Source: Thozetella sp. PMI_491
Lineage: Eukaryota > Ascomycota > Sordariomycetes > Chaetosphaeriales > Chaetosphaeriaceae
Direction: 5' to 3'
Assembly (NCBI GenBank): GCA_021432635.1
Contig: MU270068.1
Span: forward strand, 248,001-312,000
DNA: 64,000 nt
A program made the position numbers and the translations under genes. The notes below the pieces were generated by a model. It worked only from the letters and a program-made list of their open reading frames with translations, made no database searches and was not told the origin of the DNA. Shown piece by piece: positions 20,255 to 54,045 of the stretch (within the stretch, counting starts at the first letter, position 1; each line of letters starts with the position of its first letter).

Positions 20255-23200
20255 TCACCAACTCGACTCCTTCGGCAGCCAAGTCCCCTTGCGCCGCACC
20301 CCTGTGTCCGGGGTCTGCCTGTTTAGATCCGGGATCTCATAGAATGATTCACGCTGCTTCTTGACCGTGGCCCAGAAGTCATACGTTTTCTCTTTCGTCT
20401 TGCTGGCCTGGGTCCTCTTCCTTCTCTTGTCTTCCTTGCGCCGTTTATTCGCATCCCTCCTCGGCTGGGGCTCTAGGCTGCCCAGGACCTCTAACCCGCC
20501 GCGGTAGGTATGCTTGAAGTAGTTCAATATGATGCGGAACACGGTCTGCACCCGGCTACTGAAGGCTGCCATCAGGGTGACAATGATCAGGACAAACGAC
20601 GTGGGGAGGGCGATGGCCCCAATATCGGAGAGGGAAGGGACTAGATCGCCGGCCCAGTCGGATGTATTCATGCCGAAGAGACCTGTGAAGAACGACAACG
20701 GCAGGAATAAGACAGTAAAGATGGTGAAGATCATGACCGACAGGTTCTGGCTTGAAGCTAGTTCTGTCTGAAGGCGAGACCAGCGAACGTCGTCCACTTG
20801 CGCCTGGCGCTGTGCCATCTCGAGCATCTTTTCGTACTGCTTCCAGAATCAGTAATCTGCCATACACACCTACACTTTCAGGCAGGGCACTCACGTCCTT
20901 TCTTGTCGTATCTACCCTCCGCAGCATCTCTGTTGTCTGCGACTTGTAACCGTCGAGCTTCTGCAAGGCTTCCTCCAGATATCCTTGCCCATTCCGCGTG
21001 ATATCCTTCAGATCCGGGGTGGTGTAGATCGTCCGCATTGTCTTGACGGCCGCTTCCTGCGTTTCGAATAGCTTAGTGAGCGTCATTAGCTCATCCTCCA
21101 TGTCACGCAGCTCGAGCATCGCAGACGTGTTTTCACGGTTCTCCCGCTCTGCCTTCCGGACTTCCCGTTTGTGCCGCTGCTTGATCGATTTCGCGTTGTA
21201 CTCTTCCGGATCGTCCGAATCCGAATCGTCCGACATTTCACGGAAGCTTTGCATTCGGAACCTCTTAAGGTTGGAGGTCATGCCCTCAGTCTGTACCAAG
21301 TGTGAGCGAGTGATGTACAAGCCACGAGACGGAGGTCTATCGAATCGCTTCTTGTACTTACCAGCATCCCGATCGCCTCCTCAAAGATGCGAAAGATCTC
21401 GAGGTCCGGATGCGACGTCCTGTCCAAGAGGACAGTGACAGCATGCAACGTGATGAAAGCGGCAAGGTCCAAAGCGTTCTCTGTTCGTCCCGTGAGATCG
21501 CCATTAAGCTCGTTGTAGATGCTATTGCGCAGATCACCTTGTTGGAAAAGCGTTCCCTCGAGAGGCGAGGACTCACGCTTGGGGAAGAAGGTCGCTAGGG
21601 TTGCTTCTTGTAGTTAGCATCCGATATTCAAGTGGCTTTGTGGGGGGACGTGGCTCACTGGTGTCAATGGCCCAAAGCCACAGCTGGTCAATCATGAGCA
21701 CGTTCCCGTCCTTTAGATCCTTCTCCAAGTTTTCCACCGAGCCGTTGTCCTCCGAGCTGGTCTCGTCACCCGTCTTCAGCCAATCATCCTTGAGGCTGGA
21801 AAGGCGTTCCGCCAACGGGGAACGGACGGGTGTCTTTGTCTCTTTCTGATTATTCTCGAGAAAAACTGAGCCCGGAGGCGGCTCAGACGGCTCCCGTTTC
21901 GTGAGTTTGTATAGCATCTGGTCGTCATCTCTCGCGCAGGTGTCCTTAAGCGAGGGGTACCCGAACTGGTCAAGGGTTCGACGAAAGTTCAAAGGTGGAT
22001 CGAAGCTCAGATACTCCCACACAACGCGGAGCTCCAGTGACTCCAGCTCGGCAACATCTTTCGGCACGGGCCGTGCTCGTCCGTGACGAAGACGGCGGTT
22101 GATAAGGTTCCTGCGGCGGATCATGCTAACGTAGGTGTCGAAGTGGAGGTACGGCATGTACAGATATAGATAGCTCGGACTCCCCCGATTCGGAGAGGAC
22201 GAGGGCGGCCGGCTCCCGCTGGGCGAGGCGCGCGGAGACGATGGCGATTCGGCCGAGATATAATTGCACGCCGGCCTTATGAATGAAGGCTGTGAGAGCG
22301 AGTGCCGACCTTGTACGTGTCTCGAGACCCAATTTTCGTTGTTGAACAGCTTCGAAAAGCTCTTGTTGTGCGTCTGGCTGAGCACCTCAAAGATGTCCTG
22401 TCTAGTGTTAACAAAACGTTCAAGAATGGATCAAACGGCGCGTGGACAGCATTGCAATGATGTGGGATGGGGATAGGCGGCTCACCTTGACCCATAATGG
22501 ATTGTTGAATGGAAGGTGAATCCACATGAACTTCCTCCTGGCAGCGTTCGGCCGCGAGAAGCCCGCCGTTAGGTCTGCTAGAGCAGCATTCCTACTTAAA
22601 CGGTGCGCGCGCTCGGCTCGGCGTCTGAAGGCAGGATCCACATCGCCGGCTTCCGCCGTGGAAACTAGCTTCGTCTCTTCGTCGGAATGGGCCCCATGGT
22701 CATCCACTACGGTTGGTTCGTGAGGAGCAGGCTCTGATTGCGTACTGCTCGCCGTGCCGTCGCTCATGCGGCTTGAAGGACGGTAGAAGCCCGGTGACTC
22801 CAGTGCCGGGACGGTAAGGCTGTGAATTGGGCGAGAAGTAGGGCCAGGTGCCGACCTCGATCCTACCATCGATGGCTTAGAGGAAGGGCCGGTGACTACT
22901 ATGGGGGGTGAGGCCTCGGGTTCCGCTCCTTGCTCGGATGTTTTAGAAGTCGACCTCCAAAAGGGCATGTGGGATAGGACGTCTTGAAGCTGAGGTGGTA
23001 TCGGTATAATACCACTCCTGCCCCTGTCAGGGGACGTGTCTAGGCGGATTGGTCCTCGCCCTGCCGGCCGTCCTAACCGGCCCAGGCGCTCCTCCAAGCA
23101 CTTCTCAGGGCCCTTGCGAATGAATTCGGAGAGATGGTACTTGATGAAGTATAGCCGAATGTCCACCTCGGAATCAGGATCGTCGTAGAACCCGATAAGC

Positions 23201-24576
23201 TCTACTTTGACGTGATCCTTGAGTCTGAGGGGTGTGTGGACGTAGAGAGCACTCAGTGCCTCCGCCTTGGCCACCGCTTTGGAGAGATCACCGAGATATG
23301 TTGCCATCGTCTTGAGGTTGTCCTTTCCGAAGGATGCGCAATGCGCATGGTCACTATCTACGGGATAGACATTCTCCTGCCTGACGCCGAGTATGCCAGA
23401 CTTGATAGAGACCAGTGGCGCCCCGAACTGTACCTCGGTCGTGAAATGGCCGTTGGTGCCCGAGAGCTGCGAATCGATGGTCTCGTAAATTGTCCAAATG
23501 CGAAGCTCGCTAGCAATGTCCAGAAAATCGCTGTTGACCTTCAGCAGCCACTTGTCACTAAGACGCAATCTTTCGGCGATGGATCGAGGCAGGGGCCGCT
23601 GGAGTCCGAGCAAGTCCTGTATGCTTCCTCTGAGGTTTTTCATGGACATATAGCTCGAGCCGCGATGGGGAGTTGCTGTTTCAGTTAGGACGCGAGCTCA
23701 ACGGGTCGCTGCCGTAGCACCGGCAAGCCATTGGGAAAGCTGGGCACCCACCAAAGAAGGTAACACCGTGGCAGTTGTACATGATGGGGCGGTACATTTG
23801 CATCTTGCTCGCTATCAAAAGGGCTAGCTTGACGACCAGCCCACCAATGCTGTGGGCAATGAAAAAGATGGGTCGCGAGCGTCCCTAGTGGACGGACACT
23901 GTAAGCAAGTGCCGTGCGGAAAGGTTCCTAGGACTCGGACGAGACTCACCGATCCCTCACGCAGCTGCCAAACCCTCTCCACCAAGTCTTGGGCGAGATC
24001 CTCTAAGGTGAGCCCCTCGGTCAGGGCCCGGTGCCTGTACAGCATCACTCTTGCCGTGCTAATAGACTTCCGAATCCCCTGCCGCACCCACAGATGCGCC
24101 GCCGGGGGGAGATGGCGGTTGATGGCAGGAGACAAAATGACCCCCTCGGCCAGCTCGGTGGCGGCCGAGTGCCGTTTGTGGTCCGTATGCTGCGGAAGCC
24201 CGAAGTAGCCTTCTGGTAGAGGGTCCCTGGCCCAGGTCTCAACGGGATCTGCGCCTGGACACGGGACTGCGATGATGTCGACCTTGGTCTCGTTGTACCC
24301 GGGACCGCCGATGTCGCCGTCAACATGTGCAAAGCCGGGCTCCGGGTCTATGTGCGACGGGCTAGTGCTGCGCAGCGACTTGGGGCTTGGCTGACACTCC
24401 AACGCCGGCTGTTGGCTGTCAGCGGCGGCAGCTGCCATGGTGGACGAGCTCTCGGGCGGAGCCGCTACCGGGTCTTGAGCGGGCTGCGTGTTCTCCGGAC
24501 TGTCGTCGCTAACCTGCGTCTCTTGCAGCATCGTAACCCTAGCCTGGTCGTCCCAGTCTTCAGTCTCGGTCGTCAT
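20255..24576 (-). CDS. alpha/beta-hydrolase (SesB/DUF676-like) fused to CorA-type membrane domain
   Basis: Seven exons: 24576-23950, 23884-23752, 23675-22486, 22397-21659, 21594-21362, 21290-20895 and 20836-20255. They give 1299 aa with all phases consistent. Residues 1-90 are low complexity. Residues 98-370 look like a lipase-type hydrolase: VWQLREGS, then IFFIAHSIGGLVVKLAL with Ser221 as candidate nucleophile, then FFATPHRGSSY (about 252-262), and PVDSDHAHC with His363/His365 as candidate catalytic His. The usual VHG oxyanion segment is replaced by AVPCPGADPVETW. A disordered middle follows (about 450-650). WLWAIDTTTFFPKR and TLFQQGDLRNSIYNELNGDL are typical of fungal CorA-like proteins. 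Exon 7 has two membrane helices (about 1138-1160 and 1184-1207) with FGMNTSDW at 1160-1167, the Mg2+ channel signature, then a basic tail. Function is not established; hydrolase plus channel-like membrane anchor is inferred. Confidence 0.85.
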
Positions 24577-25980
24577 GGTGGCAGACTCTTAGCGAGCACA
24601 GGCCACGCACACACTAACACGCGCTACCTCGGCGAAGGCTGGGAGGCTCCTCGCGGGAATCGGTCGCATTACGCGCGGCGCTGCGTGGAAACGCTAATGG
24701 AGAAGGGAAAGAGGGAAAAGGAAAAGGGACACGCGAGCCGACACGGCGGAGGGAGGAAGGAAGGAAGGAAGGGAACGAGAGGTAACAGGCGGAAGCCATC
24801 AGGCGTGTAGGGCTGAGGCCGACGGTACGACGTGATCGCTATAGTATGAGGATGACCCGGGGGCGTGATCAGCCACCCTTGTCACGCTGTGGTGTGTAGA
24901 TTGCGCCGCTAACAGGCCGTGCATCCACCAGCCAATTCCACCACCTGATGAGAGGGAGGCGGCTCCAGCTATGGCCACACCGTTCCCCGCCCCCCCAATT
25001 AGCTCCTCCTCTATCCCACTGGTGTTACCTAAGAGGCTTTGGGTGTCGCTGGCCTGCTGTAACCCTCGCCTTAGCTGAGCTATGCAAGTGGAAGAAGCCA
25101 ACAGAGAGATCTCGGATAGTCTGCGATGCGAACCCCTTCCCCTCTGCGCCCCGGCTAGCGAACGTAACCGAGGCAGAGCGCATTCAATGGCTTTACGCAT
25201 GTCTTGGTGTTGCTGTAAGCTTGCAGAAGTTGCAGCATCCTAAACCGTCTTGGCAGGCACTAGGAAGGAACCGTTCATCGACACCAGCCTACGGGCAGAC
25301 ATGGATGACTGCATCCCACAGCCGGGCTCGACACGAGCTTCATTCACCATTTTGCGCGTTCGGAGGGACGCACAAAGTGATCCTTCGCAGATCATTTCAC
25401 AACGCAACAACGTCATGTCAGCAATTGGTGTGGCTGGTTCGAAGTATGCAACGACTTAGCCGACGAGCCGGGGTAGGAGATAGAAACCTAAACATGGCTT
25501 GCCGCGCGTGTCGCCGTAGTCCTCAGCTGCAGGCAAAGGGGTTTAACACAAGTGGTCAGTAGTCTAGAATAGCGGAGCTTGGTATGTACATACATACCTT
25601 GTAGCTCCTTGTTGGTTAGATTAGGTAGGCAGGTACATAAGGTATAAATTAGTCGAAAGCTGAGACTGTGGGGCGATGCCGAGCTCTGGATGCATTTAAG
25701 GCAGCCCCTGGACCAACTTTCCCAATCCTCATATCATGTCTCAGTCGGCGGTGCGCCGGTCGTCCTTCTCCGCCTAGCCACGCACATATCGGACGAAGCA
25801 TGCGCAATGGTTCTTGAAATCCTAATTGGTTGTAGGTTGAGTGCGACTCTGACGACAACAAAGCATATCCTCCCTGTTGACAGCATGTCAGAACGACAAC
25901 TGCTCTGTGACCGTCCCCCTCCAAACATTGAAAATCCACCTGCACAACATCTTGCTCAACCACTCTCGTTCTTGGCCAGA
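24577..25980. other. intergenic, promoter of hydrolase-CorA gene
   Basis: Just upstream of the hydrolase-CorA ATG the minus strand is pyrimidine-rich, including four or five tandem CTTC/GGAA units at about 24755-24772. This is typical of a fungal core promoter. No gene was recognised in the rest. TACATACATACC-like words occur at 25583-25600. Confidence 0.45.
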
Positions 25981-28094: not shown

Positions 28095-31000
28095 ATGGTC
28101 CCTCAACCCAGATCGGGAACCTTTTCGCCAAATCCCACCGCCCAGCCGCTTCACACGGGCACCAGTCACTCCCCCCATCCCTCCCAAGCTGGTGCGCTGA
28201 GTGCGGTTGCCAGCCCCAGCACCAGTAGCCCCACTGGAAACAGCTCCCTGACCAAGATAGTCGTTGCTCAGGTCTACCTGTTGCTGAGTACCATTAAGGA
28301 GGACAAGGAGGATCCTCACAAGTGGGATTTGCAAGTTGACTCCCTCAGAAAGGTTCGCTCTTCTCCAGTTCTCTCGCGCGCCTCCCTCGCGCCTCCATTG
28401 ACCGATCTCGCTAACTCTCTCCTCTCTTCCTCGTCTTCCAGCTCATCGATGACAACGGCATGGATGTGTTCTCGAAGTACTTCACGCGCCTGGTGGCCGC
28501 GAATGCCTCCCAAATCTTCCCTGGCCTCAATCGGCCGGTAGCCAACACTGGCAACCACCACCTCCTCGTGGCTGAGATGCGGAAGCTCTCTGTGGACTTC
28601 GCTCAAGGTCGAAAGATCGCTGAGTCCATCGAGACCGGCACAGAAGACATCTTCCGCGACTTCGACTTGTCAACGTTCATGGAACACTTTAAGCTGGATG
28701 CTCTGGAGAAGACCGTCTTGGCACTGGCGTTCAAGCTCGGGTCTCGGACAGATTTGAAGACTAAAGGTAACATTGCCTGCCCCCCCTCTTCTCAGCGGGG
28801 ATATGCGCAACGTGTCTGAGCTAACTGGCAATGCTACAGCCGACGCGATACTCTCGGCCAACTTCCCCACCTTCGTTAACATCCTGAGCCGGCCCAACGG
28901 TGATCACGCGGATCTAGACTCAGACTTCATTGCCGAGCTTCTCGACCGGTTCATCCAAGTCCACCCGCCTAACTTCAATGCGGCGGCCAAGAAAGAGCTG
29001 GAGCATAAGGTACAGGCACGTTATGCACAGTCGCCTGATGCAAAGCCGCCACCTTCCCAGGTGCTCGCTGCGCTCGACCTTGTCCGCGTCCTCGGTGACA
29101 AGCCTCCCAATGCGCTTGCTCTTTATATCCATAGGACAGGAGCCGAGTTCACCCTGGACGAGGAGATGTGCGTGGGGTACCTTAACAGTCGGCCCACGAA
29201 CAACCAAATAAGCGAGGAGCAGGTCGCGGTCGCGCTGACCTACACCACGATTAGCCGAACACCGCAGCATACCCCCGCAGTTCTCGTGGCCGCCTTACGC
29301 CGTGTGCTCCCCGCCGGCTTCACCTGGCAACACGTGGTCTCCTACTTTGACCAGTCAAGCGTCCGAATTACCTCGGAACAGTTCCTACGCCTCTATAATG
29401 CTCTCCTGCCTATTGCCCAGGATCCTAGCGAGAATTTCAAGATCCACGCCTTGTGGGGTGGAGATTGGGACCACCCCGAGACCCAGCTCTCCTTTATATG
29501 TGCCTATGCTGGCTTGACACCGGAACAGCTCGATGCGACGACCATTCCCGGGGTGACGCCTACCTTCACCATTGATGAATACGCCCAGTCTCCCCCGGCT
29601 GTCCAAGCCACTGCCAGTCGCTGGGTGAAGCACCCGCTTGTCTCTGAGGAAGCTCTCAAGGCCGTCTTCAGCGTCGCTCTCGCTTCGATGCATGCGTCGC
29701 AAAGCACCGAGGCCAAGCGCCTGTTCCAGGACGTGGTGGTTCCAAACTTGCCCGTCTTCGTGGTGTCGGCATTCGGTGTCCCCAAGCCATGGCCCGAGAT
29801 GGCCGAGGAAACCCTCGTGTCGTTGGTGGATAGTTTTATCGGCAAGCAGGAGGGCTGTGACTTCGTCCTGGACAGCCTCTGGAGGAGAGACAAGGAGTGG
29901 GTGAAGCAGAGGCTGATTGACACGCATGGCATGAAGCCCATCAGCCTCCCCCTCATCTTTGAGCACGCCATGAAGCATGGCTGGCTCGATGAGCTGGTGT
30001 ACTTGCTCATTCCTCTCGGACTCGACCTCACTGCCCTGGCCCACGCAGAAGGCTACCTGGATCTTCACCAGTGGGCGCGAAGGAACAGCGGCCGGAGCAC
30101 TGAGGTTGCCAAGGCTCTTCTCCAGTTCTTGCTGATGAAGGCAGACTCCGAGATGAAGCTCCAACGGCCTATGGAGGGCCAATTACCCGCTAAGACGAGC
30201 GCAACCCTTCAAGTCCGGACTGTCTCTGCCTTGCTACAGATCTTAGAGGAGTTCTTGCCCAAGGCTGCCTTCCCAGAGCTCATCATCGTCCAGCGGGAGT
30301 GCATCACGGTCTACCCTAGGCTCATCAACTATGGTGAGGGCTTTGACGACATTGTTGACGCCAATGGACGTGACGGCAACGCCCTCCCCCCGGCCGCCAA
30401 CAGCAAGATGGAAGAACACTACAAGAAAATGTATAGCGACGAGATTGAAGTCCGCGATGTGGTCGAGATCCTTGGGCGATATAAGCATTCTCGAGACCCG
30501 CTCGACCAGGATATTTTCGCTTGCATGATCCACGGCTTGTTTGACGAGTATGCTCACTACGTCGACTACCCCCTCGAGGCATTGGCCACTACGGCTGTGC
30601 TTTTCGGAGGGATTATTTCTCACAAGCTCATCTCGGACCTCCCTCTGCAAATCGGTCTGGGCATGATTCTCGAGGCCGTGCGGGACCATGCGCCAGAGGA
30701 GTCTATGTACAAGTTTGGCCTTCAAGCTCTGATGCAGCTGTTCTCGCGTTTGCGTGAATGGCCGGGCTTCTGCAAGCAGCTGTTACAGATCCCCGGGCTG
30801 CAAGGCACCGAGGCGAGGAAAAAGGCCGAAGACGTCGTGCGCGCCCACGAAGAGGAGCTCACACATGGGCTGAATGGCGGCGGCAGCCTCCTTTCTGCGA
30901 CGGGCGACGCTCGGGCTAATGGCAATGCGGAGGATGCCAATGGCGCCGAGCAGCATGCAGCACCGTTCGCATCAATTCACGTGGACCCTCCGCCCCTAGG

Positions 31001-34000
31001 AATCGCCTTTGAGGACCCTACTGTGGATGCCCAGGGCAAGATTCAGTTCGTCCTCAACAACCTTACCGAGATGACTCTGCAATCGATGTTCAAGGAGCTG
31101 CGCGAGATGCTCGAAGTGAAGCATCAGCAGTGGTTTGCGAGTCATTTGGTCGAGGAGCGCGCCAAAATGCAGCCAAACTACCACCAAGTCTACCTAGATC
31201 TTGTCAAACAGTTCGAAGACAAGGCTTTGTGGGGCGAGGTCCTTCGCGAGACCTTCGCAAGCGTTGCGCGCATGCTCAACTCGGAAGGGACTCTGCAGAA
31301 CTCAACCGAGAGGACGCATCTCAAGAACCTGGGTGGCTGGCTTGGACTGCTAACCCTTGCAAGGGATCGCCCAATCAAGCACAAGAACATCGCGTTCAAG
31401 CAGCTCCTCATCGAGGCCCACGACACCAAGCGCCTCATCGTCGTCATCCCGTTCGTCTGCAAAGTGCTGATCCAGGGCGCGACGTCGAATGTCTTTCGCC
31501 CCCCCAACCCTTGGTTGATGGACATCATCCATCTCCTTATTGAGCTTTACCACAACGCGGAGCTCAAGCTGAACCTTAAGTTTGAAATCGAAGTTCTCTG
31601 CAAGGGCCTCAACCTCGACCACAAGAGCATCGAGCCTTCGGGAGAGATTCTCAACAGGGCACCCATCGAAGAAGTCGGCGAGCTCGTCGGGCAGGAGACC
31701 TTGGAAACCTTCGAGAACCTGTCGCTCAACGGCATCGCCGCTGGCGTTGCAGGAGCCCTGTCGCCACACGCGATTGCGCCTGCTATCCCCGACCTTGGCC
31801 CGAATCTGTCCATTCCCCCAACCGAGGTTGTGGCCCACTCTCGTCTCCATGACATTGTGCGGTCGGCCCTTACTCGTGCCCTTCAGGACATCATCCAACC
31901 TGTGGTAGACCGATCCGTCACCATCGCTGCCATCTCCACGAGAGAGATGATCCACAAGGACTTTGCCACGGAGCCAGACGAGAACAAGTTGCGGACCGCA
32001 GCCATCAACATGGTGAAGTCGACTGCCGGTAGCCTGGCCCTTGTTACGTCCAAGGAGCCACTCCGAGCCAATTTCACCAACTATCTACGAAACCTCTCGA
32101 ACGACCTTCCCCAAGGGCTGCCTGAAGGCATCGTAATCATGTGTGTGAACTCGAACCTCGAGCTGGCGTCTTCGGTCATCGAGAAGTCGGCAGAGGAGCG
32201 CGCCATTCCGGAGATCGAAGAGATGCTGGAGGGCGAGATCGAGGCGCGCCGGCGCCACCGGGTCCAGCGACCCAACGAGCCCTATGTCGACGGCAGCCTA
32301 AGCCGCTGGGCCTGGACCATTCCCCACCCGTACAAGCTGTCGCCTGGCGGTCTGAACAAGGAGCAGATGGCTATTTATGACGACTTCGCTCGGCAGCCCA
32401 GGGTGACACCAGCCGCGCCAGCGCCAACTCATGTACCCTCAACTTCGGACGCAACCCGGTCGGCCGTCAACGAGGTGCTTCAGGACCAATACAGCTCCAT
32501 ACCTAGCATTCCAACTCCCGCTGAGACGCCCTCATTGCCCCCCCACATGGGCCAGCAGAACGTGCCATACCCCCCAGTCAACCAGAACGTGCCGAACCGG
32601 CAAGGCGCGGGGCTCAATCAGATGGAGGCGAGGGCTCTCGCCGAGAGGGTCGCCAAGCTTCTACAGGAGCTTCAACGTGTCGCCATCGAGGCCCCCGAGG
32701 AGCATTTCGCGGACCTTCCGCGGCCCCATCCGGTGCTGGACATCATCGATGCCCTGGTGCAGCTGATCATCAAGACCCAGCAGACGTCGGAAGAGTTCGC
32801 CACTTATGCCGCCACGCAAATCTCCCAGTTGCTACTTACACCGCTTGAGGATAGCTTGGCTCTAGAAAGCCTCGTCCACGTTCTCGAGACCGTAAGGAAG
32901 ATTGCCGGCCCAGTCGGTAGCCACCAGATCCGAAGCATCTTCTCGCACCATCCCGGCCACATGCTTCTCCACCTGCCTCTGATCGCTGCTCTGTTAGGCA
33001 CTGACTTGCTGGACTGGCGGAGCATCGACCAAGCCATGGCGCAGGCCCTCGAGCAGCGCAAGGAGGGCTCCGTCAGGTTCCTCGAGCAGCTTATGGACCT
33101 CGCGCTCCTGAACGATAGCCCCCTCGCGCTCTATGCCGACTTCATCCGCAGTCTCGAGGAGGCTTGGGCTTGGATTTCCGAGGACCCTGAGGTTCCTGGC
33201 GGACAACAATTCAAGGCCAAGATCCTCAGCCCTCCTGCCCCCTTGCCAACCAATCTGAGCCACGGGGAGCTAAGCGCCATCCAGCTCGAGCAAATGGACT
33301 ATGTGTTCGACGAATGGGTCCATCTCTGCCATAACCCGCAAGCTTCAGACAAGATTGAGTTGATTTTTGTGCAGCAGATGCACAGCCGGCGCGTGGTCAC
33401 CAGCAAGGAGGACTTCTTCCTGTTTACCCGACAGGCGATCGACAAGTCGGTCGACCGATTTGAGCAGGTCGTTCACAACGGGGGCACACAGACTGATGCG
33501 TACCACGCGATTGATGCCGTCGCCAAGATGATCACCATCTTCCTGAGGTCCCACGAGGAGGGCACAGACGGACAGTCGCCTCGCGCAGTCTTCCTTGACT
33601 CGATCCTTGCCCTGGCGGTCCTTGTACTCAACCATCACCATGTCAAGCGTGGCGAGCTGTTCAACCAGCGTGTGTTCTTCAGGTTCTTCTCGATGCTGCT
33701 GCACAATATTGGCACTATCGGGGAGCAGCTGACCGACATCGACCGTGCCGAGATTCTCTTGAAGTTCGCCGGACGCTTCTTGGACCTGAATCCGACCCTG
33801 TTCCCTGGCTTCATCTTCGCTTGGATCTCTTTGATCTCCCACCGTGTGCTCATGCCCGCCCTGCTCCGGTTGGGCGAGGAGGTCGGCTGGGCCCCGTACG
33901 CCAAGCTTCTGGAGCGCCTCTTGTCGTACCTTGGCGATCTTCTGAAGCCATACGAGATCCCGCCCATTGCTAAGGAAGTTTATCATGCGACGCTCAAGCT

Positions 34001-34902
34001 CCTGTTTGTGCTTCAACATGACTTCCCCGAGTTCGTTGTGGCGAACTCCCACCAGTTCTGCGAGTGCTTGCCTCCCCACGCGTCGCAGCTGACCAACATG
34101 ATCCTAGTCGCAAGCCCCAGCTCCGCATCGAAGCTGCCTGACCTACCGGCCGCCGGACTCAAGGTTGACAAGGCCACGGATGCACGGGAGACACCCCGTG
34201 GCGCTGACGACCCGGAGGGTTTCCTCCAACATATCGGTCTTTATGATATCGTCGAGCACGCCCTTCAGAACGGCCCTTCGGAGGATGCGATCGCCCAAGT
34301 CACCCATGCAATTAACGACACGGACGCCGAGACCACGACCTTCGGTTATGTCCCGGTTGCTGTAAACCGCCAGGTGATCGAGGCTGTGGTGGCCATCACT
34401 GGCAACTTCGCCGCAGAGAAAGCAGCATCCAAGTCGAGCGATGCTTCCGTCTTCGCCTCCGACACGGCCGATAGCAGGACGCTGCACATGCTCGTCACGG
34501 AGCTCGGCCCTGAGGCACGCTACTACCTCCTAAGCGCCATGGTGAATCAGCTCCGTTTCGCAAACGCGACGCAGCAGTACTTCAGCCAGGCGCTGCTCGA
34601 CATCTTCGGCCATGATCTAGCCGATCCCGAGCAGAACGAGGTTCGGCAGCAGATTGTTCGCATCCTGCTAGAGCGCCTCGTCGGCTTCTGGCCCCAGCCG
34701 TGGGGCCTCTTGATCACCATCGCTGAGCTGATCAAGAACGAGAAGTACAAGTTCTTCGACCTACCGTTCATCAAGGCGGCTCCTGAGGTGAGTTTGATTT
34801 CCAGCCGTCGATTCGGCGATACAGTCACTGGTTATGGGGTCGGATGCTGACAAGAATGCTTAGGTGGCTGAGAGGTTTGCCGCCCTCTTGTCGCGAAATT
34901 AG
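28095..34902 (+). CDS. not1: CCR4-NOT complex scaffold subunit NOT1
   Basis: Central scaffold of the CCR4-NOT complex, which shortens poly(A) tails and represses translation in the cytoplasm. Four exons, 28095-28352, 28442-28766, 28840-34787 and 34864-34902, give 2189 aa. A TAA lies in frame six bases before the start ATG, so the start is well fixed. By order: N-terminal HEAT repeats (about 60-630), a TTP-binding-like helical region (about 650-855), the MIF4G domain that docks CAF1 (about 930-1160; IQFVLNNLTEMTLQSMFKEL), the DUF3819 CNOT9-binding region (about 1190-1335; DIVRSALTRALQDIIQPVV), and the Not1 superfamily homology domain at the C terminus (about 1650-2175), where NOT2/NOT3/NOT5 bind. 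The last exon adds only VAERFAALLSRN. Intron 1 uses a weak GTTCGC donor. Confidence 0.96.
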
Positions 34903-52631: not shown

Positions 52632-54045
52632 ATGGTGAGTAAGGCGCAGCAGCATCCCCGCATCCCTTCACCTGCGCCGTCCGCGCTCTACCAAGCTCAA
52701 GCTAATGCGCCGGGTCTGTTTGGTTTTAGGACTACGCCCGTGGCGCCTACAATACGGCGACGTCCAAGTCCGCTCAGCGAACGCTCCTCAACACTTTCCT
52801 CCTGGTAATTGCGTCTGTAATTCTCTACGGCTTCGCGGCACTGGCATACCTTCTCTTCTACCACAATTACCTCCCGGACCAGGTCACAACAATACCGGTC
52901 CATCTCCAGTATGGGTACGTTGTAGGACGCGCCACCGCTTGCATTCCAGTTGGCAGGAAACATCGCAGGCCCCAAGAGGGTGGGACAAGCACTGACAGAG
53001 TGAAAATGGCAGCTATGGCCTTCATCCCTACGGTGTCGCCCATCTCGTCGATAAGAACCTCAAGGACCAGCAAGCCTACGACATCACCGTGTCCCTGACG
53101 CTCCCACGCTCGCCCACCAACCTCAACCGCGGCAACTTCATGGTTGCCCTGCATCTGCTCACCAGTGACACGGGCAGCGCAGTTCTCAGCTCTAAGTCCA
53201 AACCCAAGCCTGTAGTGGGCTCGCCGGCGAAGCTCGTACCGCCCTACCCTGAGTACCCGGCCCACCCAGGCGCCAACACCGGCCCTTCGCAGCCCAACCC
53301 CCATGATGCCCAGTTCGCTGGCGCTGGTGTGTTATACACGTCTACCCGGCCGGCGCTTATACCATACACGGATCCGTTGGTGTCACTAGCGTCGCGCATT
53401 CTCTTTATCGCCTACTACGTGCTGTTCCCGCACGCGGAGCGCACACAGCTTATAGTGTCTATGGTCGAGAAGGTGACGTTTGCGCGGGGCGGGCCGCTGC
53501 CATCACAGCTGTTCCTTGAGCTGCAGGCTGGGCAAGATCTCCAGGTGTACGACGCGGCGGTGACGCTTACGGCGCAGCTCAGCGGGTTGCGGTACATCAT
53601 GCATCACTACTGGCTGGTGTCGTTTTTGGTTCTGAGCACTGCGTTCTGGGCATGCGAGGTGGGCTTCATGGCTGTGGCATGGCTGGGCTTGAGCCTAGTG
53701 TTCGGTGGAGCTGGGCCCGCGCAAGAAGAGACGACAGCGATGGTCAAGCCGGGGCAGACCAAGCCAGATGTTGACGGGATGTCCGACACGGAGCGCACGT
53801 TTCCGAGCACATCGAGGCAGATGCCGCTGAAATACGAAGGACGCGTCAAGACAGAGGAGGACGACGGGCCTGGCATCTCCGAACTACTCCCGCCTGCCGG
53901 CCAGGGAGGGGAGGCAGACGATGAGGATGAGAAGGATGACGACGAAGACGAGGGTTTCAGGGACTCGGGCATCGGGACTAGCTATAGCGAGGGTAACCGG
54001 GATGGAGTCAGAAGGCGGACTTCCGGCTCGAGGGGCCGCCAATGA
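52632..54045 (+). CDS. SEI1: seipin, lipid-droplet assembly protein
   Basis: Endoplasmic-reticulum membrane protein that organises lipid-droplet formation sites. Model: an ATG-only first coding exon (52632-52634), then 52730-52914 and 53013-54045, giving 406 aa (MDYARGAYNTATSKSAQR at the start). The frame is open back to an ATG at 52422, which would add 70 residues of non-conserved, Pro/Arg-rich sequence; I prefer the short start because the following segment is amphipathic, as in seipins. TM1 is at about 20-45 (LLNTFLLVIASVILYGFAAL), the lumenal domain at about 46-260 (ITVSLTLPRSPTNLNRGNFM, then FPHAERTQLIVSMVEKVTFA), and TM2 at about 262-288. The tail is acidic and Ser-rich. Start is uncertain; family is firm. 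Confidence 0.9.

Follow-up and report, generated by a model that had tools for sequence, protein, structure and literature searches.

Introduction

Among the N-terminal effector domains of fungal NOD-like receptor (NLR) proteins, SesB-like ones are frequent; their relatives include lipases such as SERAC1 (PMC4986451; PMC12258605). Compared with other domains, SesB-like domains have been assigned a more indirect part in regulated cell death (PMC9815663), and sesB genes are also found on their own next to NLR-type genes, with PP or sigma motifs as the link (PMC3321046). Here we analyse a gene on the minus strand of a 64,000-nucleotide stretch of the fungus Thozetella sp. PMI_491 (contig MU270068.1, positions 248,001 to 312,000; G000:C54:248001-312000 in our numbering), referred to as the window. 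Judged by its sequence, the product is a fungal CorA-type protein with a predicted SesB-type hydrolase at its N-terminus, where two relatives from the same genome have ankyrin repeats. Unprefixed coordinates are window positions.

CorA-type proteins of filamentous fungi have been met in several contexts. The expanded CorA-like genes of Endocarpon (PMC3897900) and Scedosporium (PMC10694956) were read in those genome papers as Mg2+ transporters. In Morchella importuna a mapped region of 23 genes contains two candidates for vegetative incompatibility, one of them the CorA-domain gene mimpvic32; the evidence is linkage, without proof, and the product is given as 765 residues in the text and 773 in the table (PMC8940278). 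Injury-responsive genes of a filamentous fungus include a CorA gene and ankyrin genes (PMC10714772), and for Aspergillus nidulans AN6960, WD, ankyrin and CorA-like domains are given (PMC5371717). The CorA effector of type III CRISPR immunity, which is postulated to open a pore, binds SAM-AMP and works with the phosphodiesterase NrN, to which it is fused in some species (PMC10600005). Channel-enzymes are an existing class, an example being TRPM2 (PMC11479946).

No hydrolase-CorA fusion was seen among the titles and abstract openings listed by literature searches that missed most subscription papers. Public fungal proteomes may already contain one without a name. Scans of two non-fungal collections, which are silent on the spread among fungi, gave ten pattern matches in viral_contigs (with a 254-residue part) and 69 in genome_contigs (with a 193-residue part), none of them confirmed.

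Two modules, very likely in one gene

An initial annotation had proposed a serine hydrolase fused to a CorA-type channel module. Rebuilding the gene from the sequence reproduced its coordinates (24576..20255), strand, seven exons, 1299-residue product and named motifs, the last being AVPCPGAD at residue 103, AHSIGG at 219, FFATPHRGS at 252, DSDHAHC at 360 and GMN at 1161. The six introns, of 65, 76, 88, 64, 71 and 58 bases, have GT..AG ends throughout. Gene structure, like gene content, would suit a filamentous ascomycete. Acceptors were picked for keeping the reading frame and matching family motifs, which leaves the motif fit at the junctions partly dependent on that choice; for intron 4 there is an alternative acceptor close by.

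The two modules very likely belong to a single gene, as the annotation had it, because one stop-free frame joins them inside exon 3. A stretch of 275 codons, running from His363 of the hydrolase to WIHLP of the CorA-like module, contains no stop. Base shuffles of this piece were stop-free once in 20,000, and its other two frames hold 13 and 8 stops. Three junctions can be compared with relatives: that of intron 2 (FF|ATPHRG) agrees with FFATPH of own-genome relatives, that of intron 3 (NNPLWVK|D) is comparable to NNMAWVE in a relative, and that of intron 4 (MIDQLWLWAID|TTTFFPKR) to MVDQLWLWILD.TVITSFPRR, again in a relative.

We hold the domain anatomy that follows with high confidence. In the gene model, exon 1 (23950..24576, residues 1-209) encodes an acidic Q/S/P-rich N-terminus and the start of the hydrolase, and exon 2 (23752..23884, residues 210-254, final codon split) the nucleophile elbow AHSIGG. 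Exon 3 (22486..23675, residues 254-650), stop-free between the modules, contributes the remaining hydrolase with FFATPHRGS, the acid and the histidine, then a linker and the CorA-like start (FMWIHLPFNNPLWVK). The linker, about residues 400-634 (22534..23238), comprises some 60 unclassified residues and then a part that is Ser/Pro-rich by eye. Block comparison assigns to exon 4 (21659..22397, residues 651-897, final codon split) the CorA-like cytosolic module with MPYLH, RRTLDQ, RDDDQ and MIDQLWLW, and to exon 5 (21362..21594, residues 897-974) the part from TTFFPKR to EEAIGML. Exon 6 (20895..21290, residues 975-1106), in which the Pfam CorA match begins, encodes a charged and probably helical stalk region, and exon 7 (20255..20836, residues 1107-1299 with the stop codon) supplies the two predicted transmembrane helices, GMN and a basic C-tail.

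The N-terminal hydrolase

The SesB/DUF676-type alpha/beta hydrolase is estimated to extend over about residues 95-385 (23281..24294), across introns 1 and 2. Pfam DUF676 matched at residues 194-266 (E 4e-6; 26.9 bits against a gathering score of 20.3), and this, with the aligned triad described below, bears out the annotation's lipase-like, SesB-type domain. Four further Pfam models, mostly of alpha/beta hydrolases, fell below the cut-off, among them PGAP1 (E 0.26), which the annotation had suggested for comparison. Searches of the PDB gave little more: a single match by single sequence (E 0.0088, running into a purification tag) and marginal hydrolases only by profile (E 0.0039 and up). Among the PADLOC models, DUF626_VIII matched the protein weakly (E 6.7e-5).

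In the host genome (72.3 Mb, 157 contigs), to which all own-genome comparisons refer, 45 places besides the gene itself match the hydrolase half at E 1e-3 or better; they remain from 48 matches when three that are exons of the window gene are taken out, and two of them may be exons of one gene. Eleven of these SesB-like places were aligned with the window hydrolase (alignment A1, 12 rows). HSxGG and F..TPHxG are invariant in all 12 rows, and the predicted nucleophile Ser221 (23849..23851) falls in the former. Glu318 (23482..23484, in IYE), the candidate catalytic acid, is matched by glutamate in six of the seven other rows that reach it, the exception being L014. The predicted catalytic histidine, His363 (23347..23349, in SDH), is matched by histidine in all three others that do so (L014, L015 and L041; the ragged end of L017 was excluded).

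The oxyanion loop is different. Near residue 103, where xVHGxxG would be expected, the window protein has VPCPGADPVETW (VPCPGA, within AVPCPGAD at residues 103-110; 24247..24270). The three other rows of A1 that span the loop all have VHGxxG, L017 beginning just past it; this sample is biased, as the starts of L018 and L019 were set by a scan of 18 loci for VHG-like patterns. With that proviso the departure which the annotation had remarked upon is real. A SesB-like frame on another contig, C74, has VPGIGT in the loop.

The CorA-type module and its relatives

Pfam CorA (PF01544) matched at residues 1018-1179 (E 6.6e-11; 42.5 bits against a gathering score of 27). Two C-terminal hydrophobic stretches flank the CorA signature GMN (residues 1161-1163; 20666..20674), with hydropathy peaks from residues 1138 and 1180. 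The predicted transmembrane helix 1 (TM1; about residues 1138-1157, 20684..20743) reaches a 19-residue hydropathy of 2.31 and TM2 (about residues 1178-1198, 20561..20623) one of 2.33, in agreement with the two-helix CorA module first described. A four-row profile found solved CorA chains in the PDB at E 1.1e-6, aligned over TM1 to GMN. The single-sequence search was weak (best E 0.023), as was the match of the PADLOC CorA model (E 0.002). The window protein keeps both GMN and, in TM1, the FLPLSF stretch.

The annotation placed the beginning of the CorA part at residue 800. We reject this start, since the shared cytosolic blocks begin near residue 635: residues 635-910, ahead of the stalk, contain all six of WIHLPxNN, MPYLH, RRTLDQ, RDxDQ, MIDQLWLW and TxFPKR. 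The definition of these blocks comes from a comparison of five own-genome rows, namely the window protein and the four places that match its CorA half in a protein search (two on C9, one each on C18 and C66; E 2e-15 to 4e-4), three of the four relatives' rows being partial. All four relatives hold the blocks or close variants, the second C9 gene having FAERW for the last. On this basis we propose a WIHLPxNN-type subfamily of fungal CorA proteins that would include the window protein.

The two C9 genes (about 484000-487500, with the 5' end beyond the stretch examined, and about 1239400-1243000) carry N-terminal ankyrin repeats (Pfam Ank_2, E 4.2e-82 and 3.1e-59) and show AIN and TIN at the position of GMN (L041:2184-3497 and L043:3152-4477). 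No ankyrin match was found in the 1299-residue window protein at E 1 or better in Pfam. The C66 relative shows no ankyrin repeats by eye; the middle part of the C18 relative has no Pfam match, and its N-terminus lies beyond the locus.

At G000:C10:114687-115133 (L034/L042) there is a decayed copy of the 3' end only of the window gene, covering the transmembrane pair and the C-tail. Its identity is 41-42%, three stops fall within the match and the G+C content of the 3.4-kb locus is 0.469. Part of the basic C-tail that follows TM2 (TYDFWATVKKQ..., 20255-20560) is still recognizable in this copy, so the tail may be functional in itself.

Immune features and genomic surroundings

In Pfam neither a NACHT or NB-ARC domain nor NLR-type repeats matched the window protein at E 1 or better, and the P-loop pattern G-x4-GK[ST] is absent from it; we therefore reject a classic NLR. 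The PP and sigma amyloid patterns, as given in PMC3321046, are likewise absent from the protein, and an effector signalled through them, of the sesA/sesB type, is rejected as well.

Outside the gene the window holds 21 open reading frames of 190 residues or more. Ten were scanned with Pfam and all ten matched: Surp, DAO, ETF-QO, MFS_1, Not1, methyltransferase, UPF0029, SH3, seipin and DUF7918. Most of these ten read as housekeeping genes, and none is an NLR or HET gene, which weighs against the executor reading discussed below. The Not1 gene, for the CCR4-NOT scaffold, is one long open frame at 28758-34847, and the seipin gene lies at 52996-54042; both were identified by Pfam.

Elsewhere in the genome CorA and SesB-like genes do meet. 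At G000:C74:20500-27500 (L040), frames with SesB-like, NB-ARC, DUF7779 and TPR parts are preceded on their own strand, at a distance of about 1.1 kb, by a CorA gene (match 24995-25273, minus strand). The SesB-like frame, with PGAP1 at 4.2e-5 and DUF676 at 6.5e-4, both just below the cut-off, would form one NLR gene with the other three frames, introns not being modelled. The CorA gene and this putative receptor gene are possibly an effector/receptor pair. By eye, the cytosolic part of the C74 CorA appears to be of a different type from that of the window protein. On C9, about 5 kb separate the ankyrin-CorA gene at C9:486645 from a frame matching DUF676 and NPHP3_N (NACHT below the cut-off), and other open frames lie between.

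To put a number on such proximity we counted 17 CorA-type places (15 left from 17 matches once the window gene and one of two C112 pieces were set aside, plus C18 and C66) against the 45 SesB-like places. A SesB-like place is found within 6 kb for two of the 17 (p 0.007) and within 3 kb for one (p 0.06). Both values assume uniform placement, and the test is post hoc, the 6-kb threshold having been picked after the data were seen; we take the proximity as a hint only.

What the protein may do

The explanation that we tentatively prefer is an enzyme-coupled cation channel, in which the hydrolase couples a signal to the CorA-type channel. CorA proteins have both termini in the cytosol. By analogy, the CorA-type half would form a homo-oligomer, probably a pentamer, around a cation pore lined by GMN; both halves of the protein would be cytosolic, and several hydrolase domains would be gathered by the oligomer at the surface of the membrane. 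Judging by the paralogues, the N-terminal slot may be where input arrives; ankyrin repeats there would bind partners. In the window protein the hydrolase would act on, or merely bind, a membrane lipid or acyl ester; gating of the channel would be altered and, with it, the flux of cations. A hydrolase in this position can generate or clear a lipid signal read by the channel, serve as a dead sensor, or work as an effector on the membrane itself. A stress, damage or non-self response appears the likeliest physiological setting.

Two points weigh against a hydrolase-coupled cation channel. In alpha/beta hydrolases the backbone NH of an oxyanion-loop residue would form the oxyanion hole. With VPCPGA in place of VHGxxG, a gapless alignment would put a proline where the relatives have the NH-bearing residue, so that catalysis is uncertain and the enzyme may be weak or dead. 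In addition, fungal CorA proteins of this kind need not be Mg2+ channels, since the two ankyrin-CorA paralogues have AIN and TIN for GMN.

A role in the response to non-self or damage is plausible by analogy, because a CorA gene stands beside the SesB-NB-ARC-TPR gene on C74 and because the Morchella incompatibility candidate has a CorA domain. A bolder version, an all-in-one membrane executor or signalling channel-enzyme in which SesB-type lipase and CorA-type channel control one another within one subunit and serve such a response without an NLR of their own, we consider doubtful.

The strongest alternative makes the protein a stand-alone membrane effector of fungal immunity, an executor of cell death or non-self response: the SesB-type lipase would attack membrane lipid and the CorA part open a damaging pore, triggered by an NLR or by damage. 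We regard this as possible, if rather unlikely. It would be in keeping with the frequency of SesB-like domains among fungal NLR effectors (PMC4986451; PMC12258605), with sesB genes that occur separately beside NLR-type genes (PMC3321046), with mimpvic32 (PMC8940278) and with the pore postulated for CRISPR CorA effectors (PMC10600005). The C74 arrangement and the 6-kb count point the same way, but that threshold was post hoc, the 3-kb figure is weaker, NLR genes could cluster, the C9 pair is interrupted by other frames and the C74 CorA seems to be of a different type. Moreover, the window protein lacks an NB domain and PP or sigma motifs, and its scanned neighbours are Not1, seipin, ETF-QO, MFS and the like.

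The intact GMN, the altered oxyanion loop and neighbours of housekeeping type would suit a transporter of Mg2+ or another divalent cation, with a catalytically dead SesB-type fold as sensor or scaffold. This is an unlikely explanation in our view, for a long-dead enzyme tends to lose its catalytic residues, and the serine, glutamate, histidine and TPHRG are all kept, though a single genome cannot reveal constraint. Less probable again is a membrane-anchored lipid hydrolase, the CorA part being only an oligomeric anchor through which no ions flow; AIN and TIN in the ankyrin-CorA paralogues indicate that the module persists without the canonical filter, but the window protein retains GMN and FLPLSF. 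Finally, we consider it very improbable that the gene model has fused two adjoining genes, and reject two separate genes read as one: the model does come from sequence alone, with acceptors picked partly by motif fit, but the histidine block of the hydrolase and the WIHLP block share the unbroken frame of exon 3.

Should the two halves of the enzyme-coupled channel cooperate, SesB-type lipases, known from fungal NLRs, and CorA membrane effectors, known from CRISPR systems, would be linked in one eukaryotic protein, and hydrolase coupling of a cation channel could be tested directly in it. A pointer to the function of some of the expanded CorA-like genes in filamentous fungi would follow as well.

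Comparison with known systems

With the SesB-like and DUF676 lipases of NLR proteins the window hydrolase shares HSxGG, FxxTPHxG, the acid and the histidine. The domains compared by sequence were those of its own genome, while sesB of Nectria haematococca is likened by family. In contrast to these lipases, the window protein has no NB domain, repeats or PP/sigma motif, carries VPCPGA for VHGxxG and is fused to a channel module.

From the CorA Mg2+ channels (PF01544; the solved bacterial and archaeal CorA, and CmaX) the protein has TM1, GMN, TM2 and the stalk region. It differs in its fungal-type cytosolic domain and in about 630 extra N-terminal residues. CorA channels have an MPEL-like stretch after GMN; the window protein has none.

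The type III CRISPR pair of CorA and NrN (Bacteroides fragilis) is alike in that an enzyme is coupled to a CorA-type membrane protein, and in some species fused to it (PMC10600005). That enzyme is a phosphodiesterase, and the system is bacterial and belongs to a CRISPR context, so the likeness is one of analogy only.

The fungal ankyrin-CorA proteins also resemble the window protein. The C9 genes have, as it does, a C-terminal CorA module with WIHLPxNN, MP(Y/F)LH, RRTLDQ, RDxDQ and VDQLWLW; A. nidulans AN6960 is likened by its domain listing, not by sequence (PMC5371717). The window protein differs from the C9 proteins in having a predicted serine hydrolase where they have ankyrin repeats, and GMN where they have AIN or TIN.

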